DNA from: Bdellovibrio sp.
GTDB lineage: Bacteria > Bdellovibrionota > Bdellovibrionia > Bdellovibrionales > Bdellovibrionaceae
Assembly (NCBI GenBank): GCA_014376935.1
Contig: JACMQO010000010.1
Location: 1 to 42,203 of the forward strand
Reading direction: 5' to 3'
Length of the DNA stretch: 42,203 nt
Shown here: positions 37,325 through 38,231 of the stretch, piece after piece
Layout of the letters: each line of letters opens with the position of its first letter
How positions within the stretch are numbered: the stretch's first letter is position 1
Translations under genes and position numbers: made by a program
The notes under the pieces: generated by a model
The model's input: only the letters and a program-made list of their open reading frames with translations
Databases searched by the model: none
Told to the model about the DNA's origin: nothing

Positions 37325-37352
37325 TTGGAAACTTCTTTCAACCCACGATAAT
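37325..37352 (+). promoter_or_regulatory. Putative promoter for the intergenic RNA(s)
   Basis: TTGGAA (37325-37330), 16-nt spacer, GATAAT (37347-37352); CACGATAA (37344-37351) also resembles a sigma-28 -10 (GCCGATAA), but with TAAA 19 nt upstream instead of ~15. Confidence 0.45.
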
Positions 37353-37380
37353 ATTTTCATATCGGACGTATCGACGTAAG

Positions 37381-37498
37381 CCTAGGCCCGCAAGGGTTTC
37401 CGCAAGGAAAGTCACTTAGGACAGTTGTCGAGATTAAGGAGGGCATGTGAGAAGAGTTTTCAATCACAATGATAAGACACCAAAGTGACGAAAAACCC
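37381..37498 (+). ncRNA. Candidate structured, possibly bistable RNA of unknown class
   Basis: CCTAGG/CTTAGG closes two abutting hairpins CCC-GCAA-GGG and TTTCC-GCAA-GGAAA; GTCACTT(37411-37417)/AAGTGAC(37483-37489) and GGGTTT(37394-37399)/AAACCC(37493-37498) form a nested alternative helix; further hairpin CATGTGA...TCACaATG (37444-37471). Confidence 0.6.
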
Positions 37499-37623
37499 CA
37501 ATAAAATATTTTACCCTGTTGATTTTAAAATAAAAAGTTTGAGCTAAGAATTTAGATTATGTTTAAGAGGTTATTTTATTTAGTTAACAACTAACTAATA
37601 GGAGGCGCTTAGCGGATCTTAGA

Positions 37624-37639
37624 ATACGGGTGACCGTAT
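37624..37639 (+). other. GNRA hairpin immediately upstream of the GEMM aptamer
   Basis: ATACGG-GTGA-CCGTAT, perfect 6-bp stem. Confidence 0.6.
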
Positions 37640-37654
37640 CCTTCTTTTGCCTCA

Positions 37655-37726
37655 AGGCAAACCTCGGGAAACTGAGGGACGCAAAGCTAAAGGGGCTTGT
37701 TGAAAGACGTGCCAGCCAGCTGCCAA
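37655..37726 (+). promoter_or_regulatory. Cyclic-di-GMP-I riboswitch aptamer (GEMM-I)
   Basis: GGCAAACC; P2 CCTCGG-GAAA-CTGAGG; GGGACGCAAAGC; ...TGCCAGCCAGCTGCC closing P1 (GGCA 37656-37659 / TGCC 37721-37724). Conserved GEMM-I elements are in correct order. Confidence 0.92.
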
Positions 37727-37814
37727 AGGATAAAAAAGACCTGCGGTGAAAACTGCAATGGAAGGAAAAAATCGTTCCTACAAAATTATATCATGGATTG
37801 GTTTCATTCCCCTT

Positions 37815-37855
37815 AAATGCAGGCATTTCACTGATGAATAGCTTGCATTTTTTTT
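37815..37855 (+). terminator. Strong intrinsic terminator ending the GEMM-containing transcript
   Basis: AAATGCAGGC (37815-37824) / GCTTGCATTT (37841-37850), 10 pairs including one G-U, followed by a run of 8 T (37848-37855). Confidence 0.88.
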
Positions 37856-37886: not shown

Positions 37887-38231
37887 TTACAGAATCGTCT
37901 TTAATGCATTTTCGTAATTAGGTTCACTGGCAATTTCAGCCACCTGCTCTGCATACAAAACTGTGTTGTCAGCCGACAACACAATCACCGCGCGCGAAAG
38001 CAGTCCTGCAAGGGCAGAATCAGCGATCGTGACGCCGTAGTCTTTACCAAACGAACTTCTAAACGTTGAAAGAGTTTCGCAATTCTTAATGCCTTCCGCT
38101 CCGCAAAAACGGACTTGAGCAAATGGAAGCTCGGCAGAAATATTTAAAACTTTTTTCTTACCCGCAAAATCATTTAATGAAACTTCAGATAAATCATTCC
38201 TTGCTGCTAGCGACTTCTTTAGCCGTTGCAA
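37887..38231 (-). pseudogene. tpx: Thiol peroxidase (tpx) remnant lacking its N-terminus and peroxidatic-Cys segment
   Basis: DLSEVSLNDFAGKKKVLNI is directly joined to SAELPFAQVRFCGAEGIKNCETLSTFRSSFGKDYGVTIADSALAGLLSRAVIVL; the 'FPSIDTGVC...' block between KVLNI and SA(D/E)LPFAQ of typical Tpx is absent. Confidence 0.8.

Follow-up and report, generated by a model that had tools for sequence, protein, structure and literature searches.

The closest described counterpart of the RNA analyzed here is merRNA of Bdellovibrio bacteriovorus HD100 (Karunker et al. 2013, PMC3627812), a 445-nt transcript encoded at positions 1,073,741-1,074,185 of the minus strand, which rises 5000-fold in the attack phase to about twice the level of tmRNA, its reads being reported as about equal to those of all attack-phase mRNAs together. 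That work listed no FliA promoter for merRNA, found no conserved downstream ORF and described the RNA as not conserved outside the Bdellovibrio lineage; storage of c-di-GMP was proposed as its role, in a model called speculation and yet to be validated (PMC3627812). Short ORFs beside a riboswitch are known from the B12 riboswitches of ppe2 and metE in Mycobacterium tuberculosis, where the uORFs are translated, that of ppe2 having a poly-proline end and an initiation region partly masked in the predicted bound state (PMC11260477). The locus analyzed here resembles ppe2 and metE in carrying a riboswitch and short ORFs on one leader (translated there, predicted here), whereas it differs in that the uORF there feeds a following gene and here only a terminator follows. 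Dual-function sRNAs such as SgrS/SgrT and RNAIII are abundant regulated RNAs that also encode a small protein; unlike these, the present RNA has two micro-ORFs, a ligand-sensing aptamer and no known target pairing.

An Rfam cmscan search of the window, that is, of the whole 42,203-nt stretch of DNA analyzed, returned a single match above gathering, to the c-di-GMP-I family RF01051, aligned over the full model (1-87) at 64.7 bits against a gathering cut-off of 35 bits. This confirms the GEMM-I aptamer that the initial annotation had placed on the plus strand at 37655-37726. The aptamer is single-copy in the source genome (3.27 Mb searched). By its covariance match it belongs to the c-di-GMP-I riboswitches, and c-di-GMP binding is predicted. 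The G of the GGCAAA segment, which we take to be the specificity base G20, is intact in the window aptamer, and cGAMP-type specificity is not favoured. The full-length match is shared with other RF01051 riboswitches; unlike the usual ones, the window RNA has as its candidate regulated frame a micro-ORF ending at the terminator, and a long-range helix (P0).

The intrinsic terminator, previously read at 37815-37855, was found as a stem of TGCAGGC (37818-37824) and GCTTGCA (37841-37847) followed by eight U (37848-37855), which a simple terminator scan misses because of the long loop. The next gene was also correctly assigned to the opposite strand, a minus-strand ORF occupying 37887-38231 and converging on the aptamer RNA, an arrangement found as well in 43 of the 53 family genomes with a called gene. 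No ordinary-length gene lies directly downstream of the aptamer in the window, nor in most of the relatives' genomes. A leader-peptide attenuator was considered and rejected, as it requires a regulated downstream operon and the next gene is convergent instead. The convergent ORF itself is thiol-peroxidase-like, matches only positions 70-148 of the Redoxin profile, seems by eye to lack the peroxidatic-cysteine segment and overlaps the end of the MltD-like gene, and no ORF is present at its site in the nearest relative (G004); it is probably a decayed gene.

The carrier is a Pseudobdellovibrio-type genome of the same genus as B. exovorus JSS (G002) and B. qaytius (G013), and not Bdellovibrio sensu stricto. 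The only aptamer in the HD100 genome (G045), at 1,073,868-1,073,951 on the minus strand, lies inside the published merRNA, and a 20-nt 3' element, uORF1, P0, an AGGAGG element and the terminator position are common to both RNAs. The synteny comparison that had been suggested as a check shows neighbour genes overlapping stepwise among the relatives, with an SLT/LysM (MltD-like) gene downstream and, in many genomes including HD100, an Mrp-type ATPase gene upstream; an ABC-F gene is close to the locus in the window's genus. The names Mrp, J-domain, GlyRS and aminotransferase (neighbour clusters 1, 2, 3 and 22) were read from the sequences and not from a family search. Because the HD100 coordinates agree, sequence is shared outside the aptamer and the neighbours are linked stepwise, the window RNA is, on sequence grounds, the ortholog of HD100 merRNA, as the initial annotation had proposed.

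The aptamer was found in 77 of 100 relatives, exactly once in each and across several families of the order, and, across the class, in 91 of 144 genomes; it is missing from some families of the order and so is not universal. Judged by these genomes, the locus is conserved beyond the Bdellovibrio lineage, contrary to what was published for merRNA, and, unlike in the published account (PMC3627812), micro-ORFs are present in both the window RNA and merRNA. The existence of merRNA is already known (Karunker et al. 2013); what is added here is its conservation over several families, two micro-ORFs, P0 and the probability that the RNA is not gene-less. In the openly searchable literature, the multi-family conservation, P0 and the micro-ORFs of merRNA were not described, and the papers examined on merRNA or Bdellovibrio c-di-GMP signalling mention no ORFs in merRNA beyond the 2013 statement on conserved downstream ORFs.

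The RNA had been taken to span 37560-37855. Its 3' boundary stands, as the HD100 3' end projects onto position 37854 and the U run stops one base later. The 5' boundary does not, since the promoter region ends at 37352 and HD100 merRNA extends from 234 nt upstream of its aptamer to 127 nt downstream of it; given the genus-conserved promoter region and this lead, the RNA almost certainly begins some 200 nt upstream of 37560. The promoter boxes (AAATTGGAAA...TATTCT-like) are conserved in the genus alignment, from which their support comes, the consensus match by itself not being above chance. No FliA motif with two or fewer mismatches was found between 36800 and 38000, which agrees with the HD100 table. 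With a promoter predicted from genus conservation and a terminator found, the window RNA is predicted to be a stand-alone transcript. It resembles HD100 merRNA in its total length (about 450-500 nt), in its single c-di-GMP-I aptamer, reached after about 200-300 nt, in a terminator about 127 nt past the aptamer and in having no ordinary downstream gene.

The segment 37560-37856 has a fold z of -3.1. Within the predicted transcript, positions 37340-37440 contain two GCAA-capped hairpins, CCC-GCAA-GGG and UUUCC-GCAA-GGAAA, which are very variable across the genus; 37340-37470 was rejected as a separate structured RNA (fold z = -1.35, not significant alone). The AGGAGG element upstream of the aptamer is Shine-Dalgarno-like, yet only five loci have a suitably spaced start codon behind it. 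Its action as a decoy pairing with CUUCC was also rejected, the two being complementary but the predicted probability of pairing about 0 in most genomes.

Table 1. Features of the merRNA ortholog in the window (positions as counted in the window).
Feature	Position	Strand	Evidence or remark
Predicted promoter	37325..37352	+	-35 TTGGAA 37325-37330, -10 GATAAT 37347-37352
Probable full transcript, merRNA ortholog, about 497 nt	37359..37855	+	Promoter position, terminator end, HD100 comparison
Shine-Dalgarno AAGGAGG of uORF1	37436..37442	+	Sequence; Shine-Dalgarno at the same place in most family members
uORF1, GTG start, MRRVFNHNDKTPK-stop	37447..37488	+	D-x-x-P-[K/E]-stop end; codon-wise substitutions
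AGGAGG element, no start codon behind	37600..37605	+	28-67 nt upstream of the aptamer in 66/77 loci
Hairpin ATACGG-GTGA-CCGTAT	37624..37639	+	Just upstream of P0; conserved in genus alignment
P0 helix, 5' strand CCTTCT	37640..37645	+	Pairs with 37760-37765; sixth pair covaries
Aptamer stem P1, 5' strand CTTTTG	37644..37649	+	Pairs with CAAAGG 37724-37729; bases in common with P0
c-di-GMP-I (GEMM-I) aptamer	37646..37727	+	RF01051, 64.7 bits, E 1.4e-10
Alternative hairpin TTTGCC-TCAA-GGCAAA (anti-P1)	37646..37661	+	Minimum-energy fold; predicted probability 0.88 in the window
Hairpin TGCGGT-GAAA-ACTGCA	37742..37757	+	Ends at uORF2 start codon; sequence and fold
uORF2 region	37758..37816	+	ATG 37758; tail ATGGATTGGTTTCATTCCCCTTAA 37793-37816, (M)DWFHSP-stop; start and tail out of frame in the window
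P0 helix, 3' strand GGAAGG	37760..37765	+	Codons 2-3 of uORF2
20-nt element GATTGGTTTCATTCCCCTTA	37796..37815	+	Conserved even at wobble positions
Intrinsic terminator	37818..37855	+	Directly 3' of uORF2 stop codon; terminator in 68/77 loci

The first micro-ORF was seen in the genus alignment as a short frame varying only as a coding sequence would. Preceded by a strong Shine-Dalgarno, placed 5' of the aptamer and about 9-19 codons long, it reads MRKRIFSHNDKSPK-stop in B. exovorus JSS and MRTHEHHDDELK-stop in HD100, and a mechanical search recovered it in most family members. Column permutation gave its codon signature a z of about 5.7 in the genus (0/3000 permutations, and likewise 0/3000 in the family), with no enrichment in the other two frames of the region. 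In other families the frame ends in DPPPE-stop or DPPPK-stop with wobble bases varying freely; PPP is a ribosome-stalling motif. The D-x-x-P-[K/E]-stop end occurs in 45 of 77 loci, where shuffles lead one to expect 0.05 (0.065% per locus); among real control stretches there was a single match. As the regular expression had been derived after these 77 loci were seen, 13 new loci were fetched as a held-out test, and 10 of them carried the motif. This form is absent from 32 of the 77 loci, HD100 included, and from both held-out loci of family f11. At the level of sequence, the comparison shows a coding signature in uORF1.

The second micro-ORF, uORF2, lies between the aptamer and the terminator (MEGTNTYKDWFHSP-stop in HD100), where a riboswitch-controlled ORF would be, and for this reason the initial annotation probably erred in describing the RNA as one without a gene to control: the lack of a downstream ORF to regulate in cis stands for ordinary-length genes but not for the conserved micro-ORFs that flank the aptamer. 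In most family members, ATGGAAGG is found 3' of the aptamer, followed by a variable spacer and (D)(W/R)FHSP, with the stop codon against the terminator stem, and the genomes without ATGGAAG carry another in-frame ATG behind GGAAGG, as read from the sequences. The frame is kept in 43 of the 45 family genomes having both landmarks, over seven spacer lengths (30, 33, 36, 39, 42, 45 and 54), and the in-frame reading meets no stop in 455 codons vs 21 in 850 for the other frames. By hand parsimony, the spacer must have changed length six times on the genus tree, in five cases by a multiple of three; the sixth change is that of the window, whose 44-nt spacer sets the frame off by one base and makes it one of the two exceptions among the 45. 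The window copy is broken at its C-terminal motif, next to an A6 run, either as a real lesion or as an assembly error.

A substitution test for uORF2 was not significant, the variable part being without amino-acid constraint, so the coding claim draws solely on the frame and on the stop counts. In the tail not even the wobble positions vary, so an RNA-level constraint acts there too; both frame and position of uORF2 seem to matter, alongside an RNA-level function of the tail. The Shine-Dalgarno of uORF2 in the genus is weak and predicted to be paired. We regard uORF2 as a candidate cis target in the family, its frame being disrupted in the window copy. In this the window RNA differs from HD100 merRNA, and massive attack-phase expression is known for HD100 only. 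A separate observation concerns one Bdellovibrio subclade (G052, G054, G057 and G058; loci L058, L100, L101 and L102), where the uORF2 stop is lost (CCT CGC) and the frame continues into the terminator stem.

The P0 helix joins CCUUC(C/U), just 5' of the aptamer, to the GGAAGG of uORF2. Its pairs 1-3, 5 and 6 are kept in 37 of 37 distinct sequences and pair 4 in 35; the sixth pair is C-G, A-U, U-A or U-G (0/5000 shuffles as good), with at least three changes on a well-supported genus tree, both sides together. P0 shares two bases with P1 (CCUUUG/CAAAGG). Ligand-free folding favours P0 (mean 0.53) together with the UUUGCC-UCAA-GGCAAA hairpin, whereas with P1 forced P0 is lost and the predicted accessibility of the uORF2 start goes up in 35 of 44 genomes, the mean rising only from 0.33 to 0.42. 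In a shorter folding model part of P0 can stack on P1; predicted start-site accessibility differs little between the states, and the full-length fold favours neither clearly. The folding models predict that P0 and P1 compete at the uORF2 start, a statement that does not extend to the ON/OFF direction. The covarying P0, with its bases shared with P1 and its place over the uORF2 start, suggests that c-di-GMP gates uORF2 translation. A sequestor switch of ACCU with AGGU at the Shine-Dalgarno of uORF2 was rejected, as the pairing is the same with P1 forced or forbidden; the "no P1" constraint of that test seems to have also forced those bases unpaired, which makes that column unreliable.

It is rather probable, in our judgment, that the best description of this Pseudobdellovibrio-type merRNA ortholog of about 500 nt is a tiny bicistronic mRNA. 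Comparison between genomes shows the aptamer and its single copy, the orthology, the coding signature of uORF1, the conservation of the uORF2 frame in the family and the covariation of P0, and both uORFs would presumably be translated. A stand-alone RNA made from its own promoter would carry uORF1, ending in D-x-x-P-K/E-stop 5' of the aptamer, then the one c-di-GMP-I aptamer, then uORF2, ending in FHSP-stop in the family with its stop codon against the stem, and finally its own terminator. Binding of c-di-GMP would stabilise P1, which would compete for bases with P0 at the start codon and codons 2-3 of uORF2 and in this way set uORF2 translation; release (ON) is slightly favoured by folding, stacking of the outer P0 on P1 (OFF) being the alternative. 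More tentatively, merRNA, which ranks among the most abundant RNAs of the predator in its attack phase, may be a c-di-GMP-gated micropeptide mRNA and not a non-coding sponge, the Pro-rich micro-ORFs (DPPPK/E-stop, FHSP-stop) making peptides or capturing ribosomes when c-di-GMP signals.

That the RNA is a non-coding sponge or reservoir, solely binding and releasing much c-di-GMP (Karunker et al. 2013), seems unlikely to us, even with the abundance and attack-phase rise of HD100 merRNA and the affinity of about 1 nM cited for the aptamer class (PMC3627812) in its favour. The rarity of ordinary-length genes after the aptamer is compatible with it, as are the GGDEF genes of the source genome, by which c-di-GMP is presumably made there. 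However, codon conservation in uORF1, a preserved uORF2 frame and a covarying helix across a start codon would all be superfluous for a sponge, and the single copy per genome and the conserved flanks point beyond the aptamer. A trans-acting sRNA is more doubtful still: UUUCAUUCCCCUUA would be a C-rich seed pairing with the Shine-Dalgarno of other mRNAs, its exposure changed by c-di-GMP. The invariance of this element even at wobble positions and its place just before the terminator would suit a seed, as would its family specificity, an exact search for the 20-mer across about 85,000 species genomes giving 19 matches, in Bdellovibrionaceae/Bdellovibrionales records apart from one. Yet its mean predicted accessibility (0.46 vs 0.41 for the rest of the RNA) makes it no more accessible, and it doubles as the in-frame end of uORF2, a role for which a seed has no use. 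The RNA is very unlikely to be a 3'-UTR element of the upstream gene (a 411-aa ORF in the window, mrp in many relatives), as this gene is co-directional in the window and many relatives (mrp in HD100) but opposite in B. exovorus JSS and several others, the genus-conserved promoter region belongs to the RNA itself and HD100 merRNA has its own mapped 5' end (PMC3627812). Finally, an ordinary cis riboswitch that lost its target gene and is kept by drift, brought to mind by the similar aptamer before a terminator and queE in the more distant families f17 and f21, is highly improbable for an RNA that several families conserve beyond the aptamer itself, that shows both coding and base-pair covariation and that reaches the level of expression reported in HD100.

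In the loci of these two families of the phylum (L138, L140, L141, L145, L149, L150 and L153), the one c-di-GMP-I aptamer has a terminator and then a QueE-like start, MGFDGLLVxEIFHSLQGE, downstream of it, and a long helix, CCCCCUUUGAAA:UUUCAAAGGGGGG, competes with P1. From its sequence context, this aptamer may be a c-di-GMP switch for queE.

Since 2013, merRNA has been a striking RNA with a speculative function. If the reading of merRNA as an RNA with two micropeptides and a c-di-GMP-gated start is true, its function would become testable by point mutations in place of a debate on storage, and the RNA would stand out among riboswitches, since the frame it regulates is shorter than 20 codons and is followed by nothing, and since several families of predators and related bacteria have kept it. 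What merRNA controls has probably been overlooked so far, and gene finders may miss the targets of "orphan" riboswitches where these are too short.
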